In this document: in pieces, positions 420 to 22,391 of the stretch | How positions within the stretch are numbered: the first letter of the stretch is position 1 | Layout of the letters: each line of letters opens with the position of its first letter | Virus record (IMG/VR): IMGVR_UViG_3300032053_000330 | Location: 1-31,167 of that record | Length of the DNA: 31,167 nucleotides | Reading direction: 5' to 3' (one strand) | Source of the DNA: a virus | Program-made: the position numbers and the translations under genes | Notes under the pieces: generated by a model | The model's input: the letters and a program-made list of their open reading frames with translations, nothing else | What the model was told of the DNA's origin: nothing | Databases searched by the model: none

Positions 420-622
420 TAGGGTAATAAAAAAATGAGCCCCCATATTTAAGAGCTCTATGGTTTCTCGTTTGTTTGCAGAGGCAAATCAAGTCCTTAA
501 ACCATTGCGGTAGGTGCAATTCCTACTGGGGGCGACAAATAACAATTTAGAATATAAAGGCTTACGAGCCTACAACCGCATATTGGGGTTACGACCCTAT
601 TCGTGGGAGTGGGCTTTTTATT
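420..622 (+). ncRNA. Structured RNA with tRNA-like acceptor and T-arm
   Basis: A 220-base gap between genes holds strong secondary structure. GCCCCCA (439-445) pairs perfectly with TGGGGGC (527-533). Just inside it lies a T-arm-like hairpin, GTAGG/CCTAC (510-514/522-526) with the 7-base loop TGCAATT, followed after the acceptor by G then ACA. Bases 446-447 are TA, as at tRNA positions 8-9. The interior does not fold as a normal cloverleaf. It holds ATGGTTT/AAACCAT (460-466/499-505), an alternative TTTAAG/CTTAAA (448-453/496-501), and the hairpin GTTTGC-AGAG-GCAAAT (474-489). Two hairpins with TACG loops follow (558-571 and 585-598). The stretch ends in GGGC plus five T (611-619), which could pair with AGCCC at 438-442 as a terminator. 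It could be a divergent or degenerate tRNA, a tRNA mimic, or a 5' leader element of the downstream exonuclease-sigma operon. No known RNA family is claimed. Confidence 0.5.
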
Positions 623-637
623 ATTAAAATAAATTTT

Positions 638-1420
638 ATGGATGAAGAAATTATTAGAGAAGAAATTAAGCAGAAAGTCCTTTTATATGATTTGGAAACC
701 AGTTTTAACATTGCTTTTTGTTTTGGCAAATACGAACAGAATATAAATAGATATTTAAAGGAAGCTCGGCTATTATCTTTCGCCTACAAGTGGCTTGGCA
801 CGAAAGACATTTTTTGTTTTGCCGAATGCGATTTTAAAACTAATAAGGAATTGGTTCAGGAACTATGGAAAGTAATGGATGAAGCTGATATTATTGTCGG
901 ACAAAATGCCAAAAAATTTGACAACCGCAAGAGTAATTCATTCTTTTTGGAACATAACCTACCGCCACCTAGTCCATATAAAGTGTTCGATACCAGAGAA
1001 TTTGCCAGATATAAGTTTGGGTTTAACTCCAATGCTTTGGATGATTTGGGCGAACATCTTGGTTTGGGCAAAAAAGAAAGAATACTCGACAAGGATTTAT
1101 TGTTGGAAAGATTGACCTTGGGAAAGGCAACCGAACAAGATTGGTCTTTGTTAAAACGTTACAACAAAAAGGATGTCGCTTTATTGGAAAAAATTTATCT
1201 GTTATTCAGACCATATACAGCTAATCATCCAGCGATTTATGTCAATGACAAGGGAGTTTGTCCGATGTGCGGTTCTGACAGGTTGCAGTCAAGAGGCTGG
1301 AATTTCTTGGCAAGTGGTTTGAAGAAAAAAAATTATGTTTGCAAGAACTGCGGGAAGTGGTCGCAATCTACTTGGTCTGTTAGATTTGTCGACAGCAAGG
1401 GTGCTAACTTAGTAAAATAA
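638..1420 (+). CDS. DEDDy-type 3'-5' exonuclease with zinc ribbon
   Basis: A 260-residue RNase H-fold protein of the DnaQ/YprB-like group. The expected metal-binding residues are visible: D18 and E20 in YDLET, D95 in the stretch after IIVGQN, and Y175-xxx-D179 in the YNKKD motif, which makes it the DEDDy subtype. A C-terminal zinc ribbon follows with C208/C211 and C235/C238. Such proteins remove nucleotides from 3' ends of DNA or RNA using two divalent metal ions, and the zinc ribbon probably contacts nucleic acid. It is the first gene after the structured RNA and is followed 4 bases later by the sigma factor. There is no Shine-Dalgarno; the start is preceded by AAAATAAATTTT, the leader type seen across the window. 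Whether it acts in replication, recombination or RNA turnover is not shown. Confidence 0.8.
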   Translation: MDEEIIREEIKQKVLLYDLETSFNIAFCFGKYEQNINRYLKEARLLSFAYKWLGTKDIFCFAECDFKTNKELVQELWKVMDEADIIVGQNAKKFDNRKSNSFFLEHNLPPPSPYKVFDTREFARYKFGFNSNALDDLGEHLGLGKKERILDKDLLLERLTLGKATEQDWSLLKRYNKKDVALLEKIYLLFRPYTANHPAIYVNDKGVCPMCGSDRLQSRGWNFLASGLKKKNYVCKNCGKWSQSTWSVRFVDSKGANLVK

Positions 1421-1424
1421 ATTT

Positions 1425-1928
1425 GTGGAAAGAAAAGAAAAAGAAAAGATATTAGAACCATTGAAACCAGATATGATGGTTAAAGCCAAACACTGGAAAG
1501 TTCCTTATATGGAAACTGATGACCTATTCCAGGAATGTTATCTTAAATGCTGGACTGCTCTTGATAAGTTTAAGGGTGGTTCATCGCCAGAAACATATTG
1601 TTACCGAGTAATGGAAAATTGCCTTAAGGATTTATTTCGCAAACAAAAAAAACTCTCGATGGAAAACAATTATGAAGATGACGATATGATAAATGAAACC
1701 GAAGATAGGATGGATGCGAAGATAATGAAAGAATACTTTGTCAACGAAATAAAAAAATTGCCAGCCATAGAAAAAGCAGTCATTAGAATGAAACTCGGTC
1801 TGGTTGATGGCGTATTATACACCAACAAAGAGATTGGGATGATACTGGACTTAACGAGCAGCAGGGTTGGACAAATTGAAAAAAAAGCCTTATCCAAAAT
1901 AAAGTCTTTAAAAGATATTAAAAAATAA
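1425..1928 (+). CDS. Phage-encoded sigma-70-family factor
   Basis: A 167-residue protein with the layout of a small two-domain (ECF-like) sigma factor. Region 2 spans about residues 27-75 (DDLFQECYLKCW, then YCYRVMENCLKDLFRKQKK), matching the DLxQExxL...YxxRVxxN...RKQ pattern. Region 4 spans about residues 112-160, with LPAIEKAVIRMKLGL, a helix-turn-helix TNKEIGMILDL and SRVGQIEKKALSKIK. It would bind host core RNA polymerase and direct it to phage promoters. The start is GTG, supported by the same AAAATAAATTT leader found before ATG starts elsewhere and by the 4-base gap after the exonuclease. It sits on the strand opposite the virion genes and could be their activator, but no matching promoter motif was established. 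Confidence 0.82.
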   Translation: MERKEKEKILEPLKPDMMVKAKHWKVPYMETDDLFQECYLKCWTALDKFKGGSSPETYCYRVMENCLKDLFRKQKKLSMENNYEDDDMINETEDRMDAKIMKEYFVNEIKKLPAIEKAVIRMKLGLVDGVLYTNKEIGMILDLTSSRVGQIEKKALSKIKSLKDIKK

Positions 1929-1932
1929 ATTT

Positions 1933-2148
1933 ATGAAACCAGAGCAATGTCCTAATTGGAGTAATTGTAATACCCCAGTATGTCCCCTTGATAAAGATTC
2001 AACTGAGAATACCGAGACTAATGAAGGAGAGGAAGAATGTAAGATGTGGAAGGATAGGAAGTGGAGAATGGCATTACCTAAGGAAGTTAGAAAGGGCATC
2101 TACGATGGCAAATTTTTGAAGAATGGGTTCTACCACCCACCAAAATAA
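1933..2148 (+). CDS. Small Cys-rich CPLD-motif protein
   Basis: A 71-residue protein whose N-terminus reads CPNWSNCNTPVCPLDKD: three cysteines in a C-x6-C-x4-C arrangement ending in CPLD. I recognise this as a recurring pattern in small uncharacterised phage and bacterial proteins, possibly metal-binding, with no established role. The middle is acidic (ENTETNEGEEE) and the C-terminus basic and aromatic. It starts 5 bases after the sigma-factor stop, within the leader AAAAATAAATTT, and is the last gene before the bidirectional terminator. It is likely cotranscribed with the exonuclease and sigma factor. Confidence 0.65.
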   Translation: MKPEQCPNWSNCNTPVCPLDKDSTENTETNEGEEECKMWKDRKWRMALPKEVRKGIYDGKFLKNGFYHPPK

Positions 2149-2839: not shown

Positions 2840-3745
2840 TTATTTGTTAATAACATTAATTAAACCATCGGCAGTGAATATTTTGGGTTGCATTTTTAGG
2901 GCAGCCAATTCACTATCCGAAACTACTTTTACAATGTTCCAATCTTGTCCACCACTTAATTGATAAAATGTAGTGGGTTCAAGAATGGGATAAATTCTGT
3001 CTTCTAATTTTAGATAGACAGACGACTTTGTTACTGTTTTAATAAATTCCATATCATTATTTTTACGAGTTATATTATATCGCATAGCACAAATTACCTT
3101 GCTGATGTCATATAAATACTTATCATTCCAATAACTGTCGTATATTTTCAACTTATCGCCCTCATAGCCATAAGCCATCACAGCGTGAGAACCATTATTG
3201 ATAACCACTTGTAACGGGGCATACCTCAATTCATCTTTATAGTTTGTCGCCCATCTGTAAGTTATTTCATATTGATTAAGAAACTCTTTTGCTTTCTGTC
3301 TGTATTCTTCTGACAATTCTATGCCGAGAAATTCCGAGCAATCCTTGATTGGTCTTGGTGCATTCCAGATTCCTTCCAATAAACAACCATTGTGTCTTTT
3401 TGAATCAGCAACTTTCTGCAAATAGTTTCCGTAAAAACATTTAGTTCCAGCCATAATCGCATCAGCTTGGTCGTCAATATTTATTTCAAAACCATATTTT
3501 TTCTTGTGTAATGTTTCAAGACAATTATCAGATGATTGGTCAACGCAAGTCCAAGTTTCAACACCATCAACAACCTGTATTTCTTTGGTCGGCAAATAAG
3601 CATCGGCTTGTCCATCAGGAAAAAGAATTTCTTCTTCCGCTCCAATGCCAAAGTAATCAAAAATCTTTTCATTCTTTTGGCGAGGGTCAGTAAGAACTCC
3701 TGTATTCTTTTTACTTCGCAACCACCTTTTTATTTTTAATAACAT
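2840..3745 (-). CDS. Papain-like cysteine peptidase, probable lysis enzyme
   Basis: A 301-residue protein with papain-fold landmarks in the right order: Q70 and C75 in DQSSDNC (oxyanion Gln and nucleophile Cys), H187 in NNGSHAVMAYGYEGD, and D203 in YDSYW, where papain has Asn before Ser-x-Trp. The His-centred block followed by a Gly-rich turn and the D-S-Y-W strand is typical of C1-like peptidases. There is no signal peptide. The gene lies immediately upstream of the holin (4-base gap), where phages usually place the endolysin, so a role in cutting peptidoglycan peptides or surface proteins is inferred. A role in virion maturation is an alternative. The extra C-terminal 90 residues, rich in beta-type sequence, may be a targeting domain. 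It overlaps the NrdD-like gene by 35 bases. Confidence 0.65.
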   Translation of the reverse strand: MLLKIKRWLRSKKNTGVLTDPRQKNEKIFDYFGIGAEEEILFPDGQADAYLPTKEIQVVDGVETWTCVDQSSDNCLETLHKKKYGFEINIDDQADAIMAGTKCFYGNYLQKVADSKRHNGCLLEGIWNAPRPIKDCSEFLGIELSEEYRQKAKEFLNQYEITYRWATNYKDELRYAPLQVVINNGSHAVMAYGYEGDKLKIYDSYWNDKYLYDISKVICAMRYNITRKNNDMEFIKTVTKSSVYLKLEDRIYPILEPTTFYQLSGGQDWNIVKVVSDSELAALKMQPKIFTADGLINVINK

Positions 3746-4037
3746 AATTTTTCTTTTGTTTATATTCCAACTGCTTGCCCTTGTTCCATTGTTGGATTGG
3801 TCTTAAATATCCTACCACCCTAGAATAAACCTCGGTTTCCTGATAATTTCTTAACTCTTTATTTTTTTTAAAACAATCATCACATTTATAGACAAAGATA
3901 TAATCGCCATTTAGTTTTTGATATTTTAATAGTTTGCCATTGAGAATTGTTAAACCATTTTTTTTAAATACTATGCCGATATTACAATCAACGCAAACTT
4001 CTTTAACTATTATCTTTGGCAATTCTTTTTTTTCCAT
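3711..4037 (-). CDS. Stand-alone NrdD-like glycyl-radical-loop protein
   Basis: A 108-residue protein. Its part from residue 67 (TEVYSRVVGYLRPIQQWNKG) matches the C-terminal end of class III anaerobic ribonucleotide reductases, including the RVxGYxRP loop that carries the radical glycine (here G76) and the following WNKGKQ. Two cysteine pairs, C15/C18 and C52/C55, could form the zinc site found next to this loop in NrdD, although here they are 33 residues apart. No ten-stranded catalytic barrel is present. In known biology, short glycyl-radical domains such as YfiD/GrcA repair oxygen-cleaved enzymes by supplying a new radical loop, so this may be an NrdD spare part. It could also be a split NrdD subunit whose partner lies outside the window. 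The C-terminus is Lys-rich. Confidence 0.7.
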   Translation of the reverse strand: MEKKELPKIIVKEVCVDCNIGIVFKKNGLTILNGKLLKYQKLNGDYIFVYKCDDCFKKNKELRNYQETEVYSRVVGYLRPIQQWNKGKQLEYKQKKNYVIKNKKVVAK

Positions 4038-4584: not shown

Positions 4585-5015
4585 TTTACAATTGCGACCA
4601 AATGATTAATTAAAATGTTTGAATGCTATTAAAACTTAACGGCATATTATTGATAGAATCAGTATTCGAACATAATGTGGTTAAATCTGAATTACTCCAG
4701 CTATTATAAGGTCCATACCAAGGTCTTTGAGAATAAGGCTTTTCAATTTCCTTGATAATAGTGATAGTTCCTGAATAATTGTTTCTTGACAGTTTATCAA
4801 TAATATCCCTGAGGAATTTAATCTCTTCTTCAAGAGATTTAATATCCCTTTCACCTTCTTCTTGTAAGTTAAACAAGATTTCTCTTGCTTCGTCTTTTGT
4901 TAGTAATCCAGTGGATACTAACCCTTGGAGCGATTCTGATGTTGGCTGCTCCTTTAAACGCCAAATAAGTTTCTTCGTCATAATCTTTTTTTATTAGTTT
5001 GGTCGCAGTTGTAAA
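4585..5015. repeat. 18-bp inverted repeats flanking one gene
   Basis: TTTACAATTGCGACCAAA (4585-4602) and TTTGGTCGCAGTTGTAAA (4998-5015) are inverted copies matching at 17 of 18 positions. They sit just outside the stop and start of the 123-aa gene at 4610-4981. In the transcript they would close the whole gene into one long stem-loop. In DNA they could be ends of an invertible or mobile segment, although no recombinase is present nearby. Confidence 0.8.
4610..4981 (-). CDS. Hypothetical protein with central coiled coil
   Basis: A 123-residue protein. The N-terminus (KLIWRLKEQPTSESLQ, then GLVSTGLLTKDEAREILF) looks helical. A coiled-coil stretch follows at about residues 40-67 (EEGERDIKSLEEEIKFLRDI), and the tail from about residue 75 is low-complexity and rich in Ser, Asn and Tyr. 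The GLLTKDEAREIL portion resembles the helical SHOCT-like or phage tail-accessory type, but I do not assign a family. It is enclosed by the 18-bp inverted repeats and lies downstream of the GC-rich island. It may be an accessory (moron-type) gene. Confidence 0.6.
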   Translation of the reverse strand: MTKKLIWRLKEQPTSESLQGLVSTGLLTKDEAREILFNLQEEGERDIKSLEEEIKFLRDIIDKLSRNNYSGTITIIKEIEKPYSQRPWYGPYNSWSNSDLTTLCSNTDSINNMPLSFNSIQTF

Positions 5016-5028
5016 TGAACAAATTGGC

Positions 5029-5115
5029 AGGTGGGAGTAAATGGAGAACCATTATAGCTGGTTTCGCCTGCCTTGCCTTCTGGCAATATGGCTGCTAAAC
5101 CACTCACTCCCACCT
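5029..5115 (-). ncRNA. Strongly foldable RNA segment downstream of the GC-rich mini-genes
   Basis: On the - strand AGGTGGGAGT (5115-5106) pairs perfectly with ACTCCCACCT (5038-5029). Inside, TGGTTT pairs with AAACCA, and a hairpin TTGCC-AGAA-GGCAA caps the structure. An alternative hairpin, AACCA-GCTATAA-TGGTT, would compete with the TGGTTT/AAACCA helix. It begins right after the stop of the preceding reading frame and could be a 3'-end stabiliser, a regulatory element or a small RNA. There is no U-tract directly after it, so a simple intrinsic terminator is unlikely. Confidence 0.5.
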
Positions 5116-5251
5116 ATTCGGAGTAACCCTCGGCTTCTTCTCGATGCCTCAGTTGACGAACACGAACATTCGCAGTTTGACCAGTCGTATCATCGATACT
5201 CCTTTGTTGTTGTGTCAGAATAACGCCTCTGACTTGGCGAGAAGGTTGAAT
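5114..5251 (-). CDS. Possible 45-aa protein without a canonical start codon
   Basis: A Shine-Dalgarno-perfect AAAGGAGG (AGGAGG at 5259-5254) follows the stop of the 57-aa gene. Two bases later comes ATT, from which an uninterrupted 45-codon frame runs (IQPSRQVRGVILTQQQ, then TGQTANVRVRQLRHREEAE) to a TAG at 5116-5114. No ATG, GTG or TTG stands at a usable distance, apart from a GTG that overlaps the Shine-Dalgarno. The frame is +1 relative to the upstream gene. It could be an ATT-initiated gene, the product of a +1 frameshift from the upstream gene, a degraded gene or chance. The amino-acid sequence looks protein-like but has no family match that I recognise. Confidence 0.3.
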   Translation of the reverse strand: MQPSRQVRGVILTQQQRSIDDTTGQTANVRVRQLRHREEAEGYSE

Positions 5252-5261
5252 CACCTCCTTT

Positions 5262-5435
5262 CTAGCAAAACACCCCAGTCCTTGGTGGATAGGTAACCTT
5301 GATGTCAGGCGTTGGCTCGTCTGGCAAATCGTCCAGCGTCATCGTCTCATCAGCAGACAAAGCCATCGGACAGACATCAGGGTCGTCTTCGCAGTCGCCC
5401 ACATTGGGGCAACCTGGCTTGCAGACTTTGGACAT
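5262..5435 (-). CDS. 57-aa Cys/Asp-rich protein with strong Shine-Dalgarno
   Basis: A small gene starting at ATG 5435. It has cysteines at C5, C9, C15 and C22 (VCKPGCPNVGDCEDDPDVC), an acidic middle (LDDLPDEP) and a terminal Cys before TAG. Four closely spaced cysteines suggest a small metal-binding or disulfide module. It is preceded by AAAGGAGG, 4 bases from the ATG, unlike virtually all other genes in the window. Its codons are also GC-rich (CTG, GCC, GAC), in clear contrast with the AT-rich neighbours. This points to transfer from a different genomic background or to a separately controlled gene. No function is known. Confidence 0.6.
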   Translation of the reverse strand: MSKVCKPGCPNVGDCEDDPDVCPMALSADETMTLDDLPDEPTPDIKVTYPPRTGVFC

Positions 5436-5439
5436 AGAA

Positions 5440-5447
5440 CCTCCTTT
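5440..5447 (-). promoter_or_regulatory. Strong Shine-Dalgarno of the 57-aa gene
   Basis: The - strand reads AAAGGAGG followed by TTCT and ATG. It is one of only two full AGGAGG sites noted in the window; the other is at 5254-5259. Nearly all other starts have only A/T-rich leaders, so this site both fixes the start and marks the segment as unusual. Confidence 0.75.
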
Positions 5448-5504
5448 CCTATATTATAAACTAATCCTATATTTTTAAAAGTGTGTTAACGGTGGATAAG
5501 TTTT

Positions 5505-6195: not shown

Positions 6196-9100
6196 TTATT
6201 TATTTAAAATATATTGCATAAAAATATCTTTTGAAGTTTTGGGATATGCGTCAATAGCATCAAGAATATTTTGCTGTCTTATTTCACTATAAACTTCGGC
6301 TAATTCCTTTTTTTCTTCATCTGTTTTGGCTCTTTCGGATTGAACCCTATACCAGTGAGCAGCACTTGTTGCATCATCACCAATACGATTGGCTATTCTT
6401 TCTCCAAGATTTCCGACTATTTCGTCTAATGAAAGTTGTTCTGCCTGAGGAACGTAACCAATATACATATTTTTCATTCTTTCTATTTGTGATTTAAACT
6501 CTGGTCTATTTAAAAATTCATCAGGAGTTAAACCACTTGCCACCCAAGCATTTTCAACTGAATCTAAAATATTATTTTCTTTAGCAGAAATTTCTTTTAA
6601 TACATTAATATCATCCCATTTAACTGGTTTGCCTTCAAAATAAATTTCATCTTGTTTATTGGTATCATTAATACCAAGGATTCCTTTTCCAGCCCAAGAA
6701 TCAATTATATCTTGCTTTGTAACATCCAATGGTTTCCCTTGTTGATAATTTCTTGTGACAATTTGTAGAAAAGGAGTCATTACTTTAAACAAGAATAATG
6801 ATTGTTCCCAAACCTTTCTATTGGTAGTTAATTTTTCTGGTTCATTTGAATATACTGGAGCATTATCATAGGGGTCTTTTCTATCAACCAAACCTTTAAT
6901 AAATCTAACCATAAAATTAGCAAGGTAAAGCATACCCTTTTCCTCTTTTATCCCCCATCTTTTAAGAGTATCAATAGCCGCATCTTTAACTGATTTCTTT
7001 CCAATGGCTACAAGATTAGTTTGATTAACTGCAATAGAAAATATTTTTGTTCCTATTAAAACATCTTGTGGAAGTTGAAATTGCATTACCCTAACTGTTC
7101 CATCTGGATTTTCTCCAAAATTTAGGTGAATACTATCTTGATAATATGATGGTAATTGTCCTTCTAACTCTCTTGTCTTTTTATCTCTGTCATTAAAAAG
7201 TGCAGCAAGAATTGGTAATCCCAAAACAACCATTAATGCTTTGCCTAAATGTTTTGTTGCAAATTTCCAGGTTGAAGATGATGCTTTGAAATACCAAGTT
7301 CCAAGAGGAAATAATGCACCACGAATAAAACGATTATATGGTTTTGAAGTCCATTTATAATCTATCTCAACATCTCTGGCAACTTTACCAAATGCTTGAC
7401 TATCTGTCATTTCGTCAACAATACCAGTATAAGAAAAATAATTTCTTAATTGTTTAATCTTATTCGCATCTCCTTTTTCCAAGACACTATAAAGATAATC
7501 GGCAATAGAAGTTCTTAATATGGATTCTCTAAATTGAATTAAATCTCCTGCCTTATCAAACAAATATTTAACTGGATTTTTTCCACCCCTAATATTATAA
7601 AGTTCCGACTGAACAATAGTTGCTCCCAAAATATCATTATCTTTTATAAACTTATCTAACCTTTGTAAATATGGAGTTGTTGTTCCTTTGGCTAAATAGT
7701 GAACAGCTTCTGGAATCTTGCTGGTAAATTTTAATGGCTCTGGCATTTGTAAGAAAGCCATATAAGTATCACCAACTATATTGTTTATATTATAAGAAGG
7801 ATACTTGGAAAAAATAGCCATTGTTTTCCAAAGAGAAACAACCCTATTAACTGAAGCAATTAAATGATTACCCTTCTCTGAAAAATTCTTAAAAGTATTA
7901 TAAACTTTTTCTGGAACTAAATAAGTTTTTCTATACTTACCAATTGCCATTACTCCTTCTTCTGTTGGATAAACAACACGACTGAATGGAGAAGATGGAT
8001 TAAATGCACGATACATTTTATTGTTTATTTCATAGATTCTATTTGGTTTTGGCTGACTTCCTCTAAATAATATTTGTTTCTCTGCTGGAGATAATTTTGG
8101 TGTAATATCATATTCAATTGCTTTGCTAACCATAAAATCCTCAATCAAATTATCATAATCCATTTCAAGAAATTGACCAAGAATCGTATCTCTATCAACA
8201 ACATATTCTTTAGATGTTTGACCAGCCTTTTTTAAATATCCCCTGAATGGCATACGCAAACGAGCAGGAATTCCTTTATTGAAAATCCAATCAGGAGTAT
8301 AGTCGGAAACATAATGTCTGACATAATCTTCCAACAAATCGGTCGGTTCAAGTTTTCCCATTTCAACCAATTTGTTTTGATAATAATTTTGTAATTTTCT
8401 ATACCTTTCAGCAGCCTTAATAATATCAGGAGTTGCATTGGTTTCGGCAGTTTTTAATGCGGTATTGGCTTCCTCTATGGTTATCAATGGATTACCCTTA
8501 CTGGCGGCAATTCTTGCCATTTGGTCTCTAAGTTTTATTAGTTCAATGGTTTGTTCAATGGCAGGATTTTCCATTCCACCAAATAAAGTAACGAAGTTTT
8601 TGTTTCTTTGTTCTATTACTTTATTAAGACCACCAATAATATCTGTTCTTATATCATTTCTTAGTTTCATCGGAGCATCTTTATAAAAATATAAAGGCGA
8701 AACTATCTTTTTAAAATTATCTATAAGATTACTGAAACCTTGTTTAATTTGATTAAATGAAGTTATTTGAATCGGAGTTGTTATTTTTGGTGAAATTGCT
8801 ACTTCTCTGATGGATAAACCAATTGAAGGTTTTTGAAGGTTGTCTTCCTTGATTTTATTTTCTTGATATATCTTATCTAATTCTTGTTCTTCTGGTGTTT
8901 TTGATACTTCTGGTTTAACAACCTCTACGGGGGCTTTAACCGCTTCTGGTGTGATTGTAGAAATAGGGATAGGAGTTACTGCGGTTGGAGGGACTGAAAC
9001 TATTGGTGGTTTAACTGGCGAAATCATTGGAACTTCTACTGGCACTTTGGTCGTTTCAGTAACTACCGAAGTTATGTTTTCACTAGTAATCGGTCTTGAT

Positions 9101-21583: not shown

Positions 21584-21985
21584 TTAACTTTTCGTGAATC
21601 CTCTCACTTTCAATGTAACTGTTCCAGCACTTCTGGCAGTCATTGTGGCACATAACCACTTCAAACCATCACAGTTAATTTGGAATAATCTAAAGTCATC
21701 AGTGCCAGCTGGAGCAATTCCAGTATCTCCGTCAATGGATGCACCGTCTTGTAAGTCAATCACATCAATATAATCCCAATGATTTGTGACTGATTGAGAA
21801 TCTGAAAAATCTGGTGCGTCATCACTAAGACTTCCCTGAAACTTCACAGTCATATTGGCACTTGAAGCAGTCCCAAACTGAAGAACAACATAATTACAAT
21901 CAGATACATCAATTTTAAGACCAGTTTGAGGTGCAGTTCCTGCCTGAGCAGAAAAAATAGTTTGAATGTTTCTTGAATTTCTCAT
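21584..21985 (-). CDS. Small beta protein, copy 2 of a tandem pair
   Basis: A 133-residue protein starting MRNSRNIQTIF. I chose ATG 21985 because it aligns with the start of its neighbour's MRNSCNTIYLL and has the AAATAAAT leader; a longer in-frame frame to 22063 would run through the previous gene. It shares many blocks with the gene at 21993-22391, such as the identical NHWDYIDVIDLQ, VKFQGS, SSIDGDTGIA/ASIDGDTGIA and DGLKWLCA. The product is beta-rich and lacks catalytic motifs, so a minor capsid, spike or tail part is inferred. Confidence 0.7.
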   Translation of the reverse strand: MRNSRNIQTIFSAQAGTAPQTGLKIDVSDCNYVVLQFGTASSANMTVKFQGSLSDDAPDFSDSQSVTNHWDYIDVIDLQDGASIDGDTGIAPAGTDDFRLFQINCDGLKWLCATMTARSAGTVTLKVRGFTKS

Positions 21986-21992
21986 ATTTATT

Positions 21993-22391
21993 TTAATTAT
22001 TTGTAAATCCTCTGCCAGTAACCGTAACTGTTCCAGTACCACTATAACCACTAACAATGGCACAAAGCCATTTTAGACCATCAACATTAATCTGAACATT
22101 TCTAAAATCACTTGAACCAGAAACAGCAATGCCAGTATCACCATCAATGGAAGAACCACTTTGTAAATCTATTACATCAATATAGTCCCAATGATTAGAA
22201 ACTGATTGTGCCGAAGCAAATGCTGGTGAATCGTCACTGATTGAACCCTGAAACTTTACAGTTGCGGTTGTCGTTGAAGTTGTCCCATACTGTAAAATAA
22301 CATAGTCGTAATCAGAGACATCAATGATATTCCCAGCACCATTGGCGGCTTTGGCATTGAGAAGATAAATTGTATTGCATGAATTTCTCAT
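21993..22391 (-). CDS. Small beta protein, copy 1 of a tandem pair
   Basis: A 132-residue paralogue of the next gene downstream, sharing VSDYDYVILQYGT/VSDCNYVVLQFGT, VKFQGS, NHWDYIDVIDLQ, DGDTGIA and GLKWLCA blocks and ending GRGFTNN against RGFTKS. It is probably about half or more identical along the aligned length. The leader is AAATATAAAAATT before ATG. A terminator-like hairpin precedes it. Tandem duplication suggests either a hetero-oligomeric virion part or recent gene duplication with divergence. Confidence 0.7.
   Translation of the reverse strand: MRNSCNTIYLLNAKAANGAGNIIDVSDYDYVILQYGTTSTTTATVKFQGSISDDSPAFASAQSVSNHWDYIDVIDLQSGSSIDGDTGIAVSGSSDFRNVQINVDGLKWLCAIVSGYSGTGTVTVTGRGFTNN

Follow-up and report, generated by a model that had tools for sequence, protein, structure and literature searches.

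The virus contig analysed here (the window, 31,167 bases; genome G+C 34.5%) carries an element that has a tRNA-like shell but no anticodon domain and is not an ordinary tRNA (Table 1). The element lies in a 221-base plus-strand gap that separates a small ORF (168-416) from the exonuclease gene (638-1420), and the initial annotation was right to place it ahead of an exonuclease-sigma operon, as 638-1420 is phrog_403 and 1425-1928 encodes a sigma factor. Direct reading confirmed the end features claimed in that annotation, namely the perfect 7-bp acceptor-like stem (439-445/527-533), the T-arm hairpin with a 7-base loop (GTAGG/CCTAC, loop TGCAATT), TA at positions 8-9 (446-447), and the G discriminator (G534) followed by ACA (535-537). 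As in tRNA, the T stem directly adjoins the acceptor stem (7-bp acceptor, 5-bp T stem, and 7-nt loop), and the pairing of the shell is intact at 12 of 12 pairs. The T loop fits the pattern U-[UG]-C-R-A-N-N, with T54, C56, and A58 present and G55 replacing T55. For positions 400-637, the predicted ensemble gives a probability of about 0.87 to acceptor pairs one to six, 0.27 to pair seven (A445-T527), and 0.99 to the T stem. Two short plus-strand ORFs are also found here, one of five codons from an ATG (435-452, MSPHI*), which covers the 5' acceptor strand, and one of 17 aa (460-513), whose TAG stop falls inside the T stem; each could be a leader peptide or chance.

Table 1. Features of the element and of the genes that follow it, in window coordinates
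Feature	Position	Strand	Basis
TAATAAAAA	425..433	+	Perfect complement of the terminator T tract 615-623 (inverted repeat I5)
Acceptor-like stem, 5' strand GCCCCCA	439..445	+	Direct reading; 7/7 pairs with 527-533; same as the 5' end of many tRNA-Arg genes
TA at tRNA positions 8-9	446..447	+	Direct reading
Non-cloverleaf middle, 64 bases	446..509	+	No tRNA similarity above shuffles; low-threshold ARAGORN calls equal those of shuffled inserts
Predicted long arm ATGGTTT/AAACCAT, inner hairpin 470-495	460-466/499-505	+	Outer helix P 0.80-0.95; middle-only z -1.5
T-arm-like hairpin GTAGG-TGCAATT-CCTAC	510..526	+	Stem 510-514/522-526, 5 bp; 7-base loop 515-521; stem P 0.99
Acceptor-like stem, 3' strand TGGGGGC	527..533	+	Direct reading; present in tRNA gene matches
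G discriminator, then ACA (not CCA)	534..537	+	Direct reading
Hairpin 1, GGC-TTACGA-GCC	559..570	+	Direct repeat of hairpin 2, one compensated pair
Predicted intrinsic terminator: stem 566-573/609-616, inner stems, tail TTTTTATTATT	566..625	+	Fold -26.7 kcal/mol
Hairpin 2, GGG-TTACGA-CCC, apex of terminator	586..597	+	Repeat comparison and fold
DNA polymerase exonuclease subunit-like gene (phrog_403)	638..1420	+	PHROG E 1.2e-62; tblastn matches in many phages
Phage sigma factor gene, Sigma70 r2 and r4	1425..1928	+	Pfam 4e-10 and 8.9e-8

We described the shell by a strict descriptor with seven Watson-Crick acceptor pairs, an abutting 5-bp T stem, the loop T[TG]C[AG]ANN, and an insert of 38-110 bases. 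This descriptor has a single match in the window, at 439, and none on the opposite strand. Its chance expectation is 0.0033 per strand in a Markov simulation with the same dinucleotide make-up, a value that applies to a site picked from 31 kb by the initial annotation and to the mean composition of the window, the element region being richer in G+C. No match was found on either strand of 86 other phage loci (~1.0 Mb). A relaxed descriptor gave nine matches in 1.26 Mb, consisting of seven ARAGORN tRNA genes, one Streptomyces-phage tRNA-like element, and the window element; because the matches are nearly all tRNA genes, the descriptor is close to tRNA-specific. That an ordinary intergenic region with a terminator resembles a tRNA by chance could be argued from the single known sequence, from the choice of the site from 31 kb, and from the local G+C above that of the genome, but both the simulated expectation and the empty scan of real phage DNA speak against it, and we consider it very unlikely that the shell arose in this way.

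A pattern that combines the T stem with the 3' acceptor strand and leaves the loop partly free was then searched in the genomes of 84,980 species and found at no fewer than 119 loci. Among the matches listed, 112 of 119 loci are tRNA genes, all but one of which are Lys or Arg, and the tRNA matches that share the 5' strand GCCCCCA are nearly all Arg. G55 of the window element is absent from all 119 genomic matches listed. The seven matches without a tRNA call have a tRNA-Lys-like 3' end alone and no 5' acceptor strand, and one of them is cut by a contig end. In a Parcubacteria MAG (L150), the match at 6621-6644 on the minus strand belongs to a tRNA with anticodon TTA and a GCCCCCA/TGGGGGC acceptor, which ARAGORN reads as a stop suppressor.

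The middle enclosed by these ends is 64 bases long (446-509) and not 50 as first annotated; the statement that it lacks normal D and anticodon arms holds, while the other helices ascribed to it are a prediction only (z -1.5). Aligned to the cores of the matched tRNAs, the middle shows no excess similarity, and 272 of 500 shuffles score as high. A decayed tRNA core was considered as the origin of the middle and rejected, as this alignment is not above shuffles. Since the ends are Arg/Lys-like and the middle has no tRNA similarity, the ends are tRNA-like and the middle is not tRNA; the ends are either tRNA-derived or tRNA-mimicking. ARAGORN in its default, intron, and tmRNA modes calls nothing on the element, Rfam gives nothing at the gathering level and no ligand domain match, and the Rfam model RF00005 is unmatched on 380-680 even up to E 10. 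With lowered thresholds, ARAGORN proposes cloverleaves, yet it also does so for 124-184 of 300 middle-shuffled sequences. At these lowered thresholds it also offers an 'Ala(TGC)' tRNA interrupted by a 16-base intron; this short-intron reading was rejected, as more than half of the shuffled middles give the same. A minus-strand match to the plastid-ycf2 Rfam model (E 0.01, far under the cut-off) was taken as the complement of the T arm and acceptor, because the ycf2 model also matches both elements of the BE-cluster phages described below. The ARAGORN and Rfam checks proposed with the initial annotation thus return no normal cloverleaf and no clear anticodon, and its view of a tRNA-like but non-cloverleaf element is supported by the tRNA-specific shell, by the lack of a cloverleaf above shuffles, and by the lack of an Rfam tRNA match.

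Compared with shuffles, the domain of 98 bases and the full region of 209 bases are both more stable (z about -3.1), an excess to which the shell and the terminator contribute most. On its own, the middle reaches z -1.5, with 81 of 1000 shuffles as good. The terminator part has a z of about -4.1 (0-1 of 1000 shuffles as good) and a terminator scan match at 596-613, and some 12-20 bases separate its end from the exonuclease ATG at 638. TTACGA hairpins of the hairpin 1/2 type occur just twice in the window. Hairpin 1 and the terminator stem are mutually exclusive, as both need 566-570; hairpin 1 is predicted to form while the transcript end lies at 575-612 and to be lost once the full transcript folds (P 0.002). 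Genome-wide tiling shows that the element region is no structural outlier, the 200-base tile from 422 having a z of -2.1 and several other tiles lying below -4.

Searches for further copies of the element were negative in viral contigs (three RNA patterns, together with scans by exonuclease, sigma, portal, and alignment), in genome contigs by a portal scan, in GenBank phages by blastn, and in 86 related loci by nhmmer. The relatives of the exonuclease (about 34-42% identity) have neither a sigma gene nor the element nearby, and L005, the locus closest to the window in its portal protein (40% identity), is without the exonuclease.

The blastn phage matches over the T arm are nearly all located in one intergenic region of Streptomyces BE-cluster phages, and the match to the window element is the 29-base T arm alone (E 4-9). 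This region holds two tRNA-shelled RNAs side by side (L088:160-292 and L088:304-431; Lululemon PQ184791 99160-99988). Element 1 (160-292) has an Rfam tRNA match of 32.8 bits that reaches the cut-off, a 72-base insertion, and a retained D arm, and element 2 (304-431) has a middle of 97 bases. One or both elements are matched in 78 BE-phage records, and their relatives include L217-L226. Both-sided changes are seen in five pairs of element 1 and seven pairs of element 2, with 99-100% paired cells; the covariation score is reached by 0 of 500 shuffles, and slid controls give none or one such pair. Both T stems covary, compensatory changes also occur in the inner helices, and the acceptor of element 2 is invariant and so carries no covariation signal. 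The BE-phage RNAs are under pairing selection. One such RNA is annotated as 'tRNA-OTHER' in Mildred21 and the others are unannotated in the records examined; the BE-phage paper counts 43-48 tRNAs and one tmRNA (PMC5764925). Like the window element, the BE-phage RNAs have a 7-bp acceptor abutting a 5-bp/7-nt T arm and a long non-cloverleaf middle with other helices (predicted only in the window), and they are intergenic in a phage operon and missed by ARAGORN. Unlike it, they have middles of 97-103 bases, many relatives, and covariation, and element 1 has a D arm and an Rfam tRNA match; the inner arms differ, and the inner sequences have no detectable relation. The window element and the BE-phage RNAs have a build in common but no detectable homology.

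Among known RNAs, bacterial tRNA-Arg (CCG/CCT/UCU) and tRNA-Lys genes have an acceptor, positions 8-9, and a T stem identical to those of the window element, and some tRNA-Arg genes also have a G discriminator. The window element differs from them in having no D arm, anticodon arm, or anticodon, in its T-loop G55, and in its middle of 64 rather than ~41 bases. In tmRNA, the tRNA-like ends lack a D stem and a long helix replaces the anticodon arm, an arrangement shared by the window element insofar as its helix is predicted. However, the window element has no usual tag reading frame and no pseudoknots, its length is ~95-96 nt versus several hundred, the ARAGORN tmRNA search is negative, and the two halves of the shell are just 64 bases apart. 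RNase P recognises its substrates by the T-arm/acceptor stack, to which it binds, and takes the elbow as the point to measure from; tRNA-like structures within other RNAs are also substrates, and those of viruses and of long noncoding RNAs such as MALAT1 are cut by it (PMC4919913). These structures, like the window element, present an acceptor/T-arm stack outside a tRNA; they belong to other organisms than the window element, whose processing is a prediction.

Our tentative explanation is that the window element is a non-decoding, tRNA-like phage RNA, an RNase P-processed mimic in which an Arg/Lys-type acceptor/T-arm shell surrounds an unrelated 64-base middle. It builds on the observed shell and its tRNA specificity, on the missing cloverleaf, on the order of the genes, and on the terminator prediction. 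The rightward transcript from the small upstream genes would include the element, and most of it would stop at the terminator (566-625). Host RNase P, reading the acceptor/T-arm stack and not the sequence, would cut before G439 (438/439), and the 3' end would be trimmed back to G534 as in tRNA maturation; because the element presents this stack, the prediction that follows most directly is 5' cleavage at 438/439. The product would be a stable RNA of ~96 nt that looks like a tRNA to tRNA-binding enzymes. It should not decode, because the middle has no tRNA homology and no cloverleaf goes beyond shuffles, and it may serve as a decoy or scaffold. Read-through of the terminator would supply the exonuclease-sigma operon. 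The comparable build in BE phages, which is under pairing selection there, also favours a non-decoding RNA. Several points count against this explanation: the homologue searches are empty, the fold of the middle is not significant, and the region is no structural outlier. In addition, with G55 in the T loop the usual G18-Psi55 contact at the elbow cannot form, and the BE-phage RNAs are not detectably homologous, one of them keeping a D arm.

The ends of the element could instead be left over from a tRNA gene. A former phage tRNA-Arg or tRNA-Lys gene, its middle replaced or scrambled by a recent indel or recombination and its acceptor and T arm still intact, would now be a non-functional pseudo-tRNA; some tRNA-Arg genes have exactly the same 5' end (GCCCCCATA), T stem, and 3' acceptor strand, tRNA genes are common in phages, and no conserved relative was found to argue function. 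Yet the middle has no tRNA similarity while no shell pair has been lost. Twelve intact shell pairs around an unrecognisable middle are not expected from point-mutation decay, so a pseudo-tRNA would need replacement in a single event. G55, unseen among the 119 genomic matches listed, and the lack of any other ARAGORN tRNA gene in the window also weigh against a pseudo-tRNA, which we regard as rather unlikely but, like the leader discussed below, as a serious rival. The seven genomic matches with a tRNA-Lys-like 3' end alone show the pattern left by integration, and genetic elements are well documented to leave parts of tRNA genes behind (PMC9897764), which would suit an attachment-site remnant, that is, a host tRNA 3' end carried as attP by a temperate phage. 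However, the window has the full 5' acceptor strand and TA, whereas those seven partial ends lack the 5' strand; the T loop is unlike that of every genomic tRNA among the matches listed, and no integrase-like Pfam match was found among the proteins scanned (the window is possibly a genome fragment). An attachment-site remnant is therefore highly improbable.

The terminator bears on a different alternative, in which the 200-base region is a cis-acting leader and transcription attenuator of the exonuclease-sigma operon. The terminator (566-625) would be its off state, with hairpin 1 or 5' pairings as the alternative, and the tRNA-like domain would be a sensor or an RNase P site setting the mRNA ends. 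Because the strong terminator ends so close to the exonuclease start, with little space for an ordinary promoter, transcripts from upstream must read through it, and this makes the attenuator a serious rival. Hairpin 1 and the terminator stem, which share 566-570, fold in sequence as the transcript grows, with hairpin 1 first; the T tract is complementary to 425-433, and the 5-codon ORF spans the 5' acceptor strand. Nevertheless, the terminated form makes up nearly all of the predicted ensemble and hairpin 1 is almost missing from it, Rfam gives no ligand domain, and a promoter overlapping the element is possible. We judge a cis-acting leader to be rather unlikely.

If the non-decoding RNA is made and processed as proposed, this phage RNA would exploit tRNA maturation while having no role in translation, which would make it a candidate for a decoy of enzymes or defences that read tRNAs, or for a switch set by RNase P before the sigma operon. 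It is conceivable, although doubtful, that unrelated phages independently evolved non-decoding, acceptor/T-arm-shelled RNAs around private structured domains, using host tRNA maturation to obtain stable mimics, and that the window element and the two BE RNAs are separate instances. The culturable Streptomyces phages, with a conserved, covarying, and largely unannotated tRNA-shelled RNA pair, would make the idea testable at the bench.

We also recorded other properties of the window. Stop codons in the 35 ORFs counted are TAA in 33, TAG in two, and TGA in none, and TGA recoding was rejected because there is no sign of it beyond the missing TGA stops among these ORFs; one short ORF at ~79-170 ends in TGA. 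A host trace in 380 Patescibacteria genomes found the portal absent and the tail protein weakly present, and the phage shows no enrichment of the Bacteroidota -7 motif. Two small Cys-rich proteins, encoded at 1933-2148 (+) and by a small ORF at ~5435-5262 (-), have in common a CPN..C....VCP[LM]-like motif. The latter ORF has a strong Shine-Dalgarno sequence, while most other phage genes are without one and have AT-rich starts (AAATAAATTTATG). At 5244-5263 (-), inside a G+C-rich patch of about 4985-5470, AGAAAGGAGGTGATTCAACC is the complement, over 20 bases with one mismatch, of the bacterial 16S rRNA 3' end, with a chance expectation of 0. The region 4985-5200 (-) has a strong fold (z -4.1) with a long imperfect stem (GGTGGGAGTG.../...TACTCCCACC), and the 9-mer GTGGGAGTG occurs both here and at 603-611 (+), in the terminator region of the element. 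A 108-aa ORF at 3711-4037 (-) matches the C-terminal end alone of anaerobic ribonucleotide reductase (NRDD, E 1.2e-9). In addition, two adjoining duplicated structural-like genes without a Pfam match (21584-22063 and 21993-22391, minus strand) form direct repeats with a start-to-start distance of ~409 bases.
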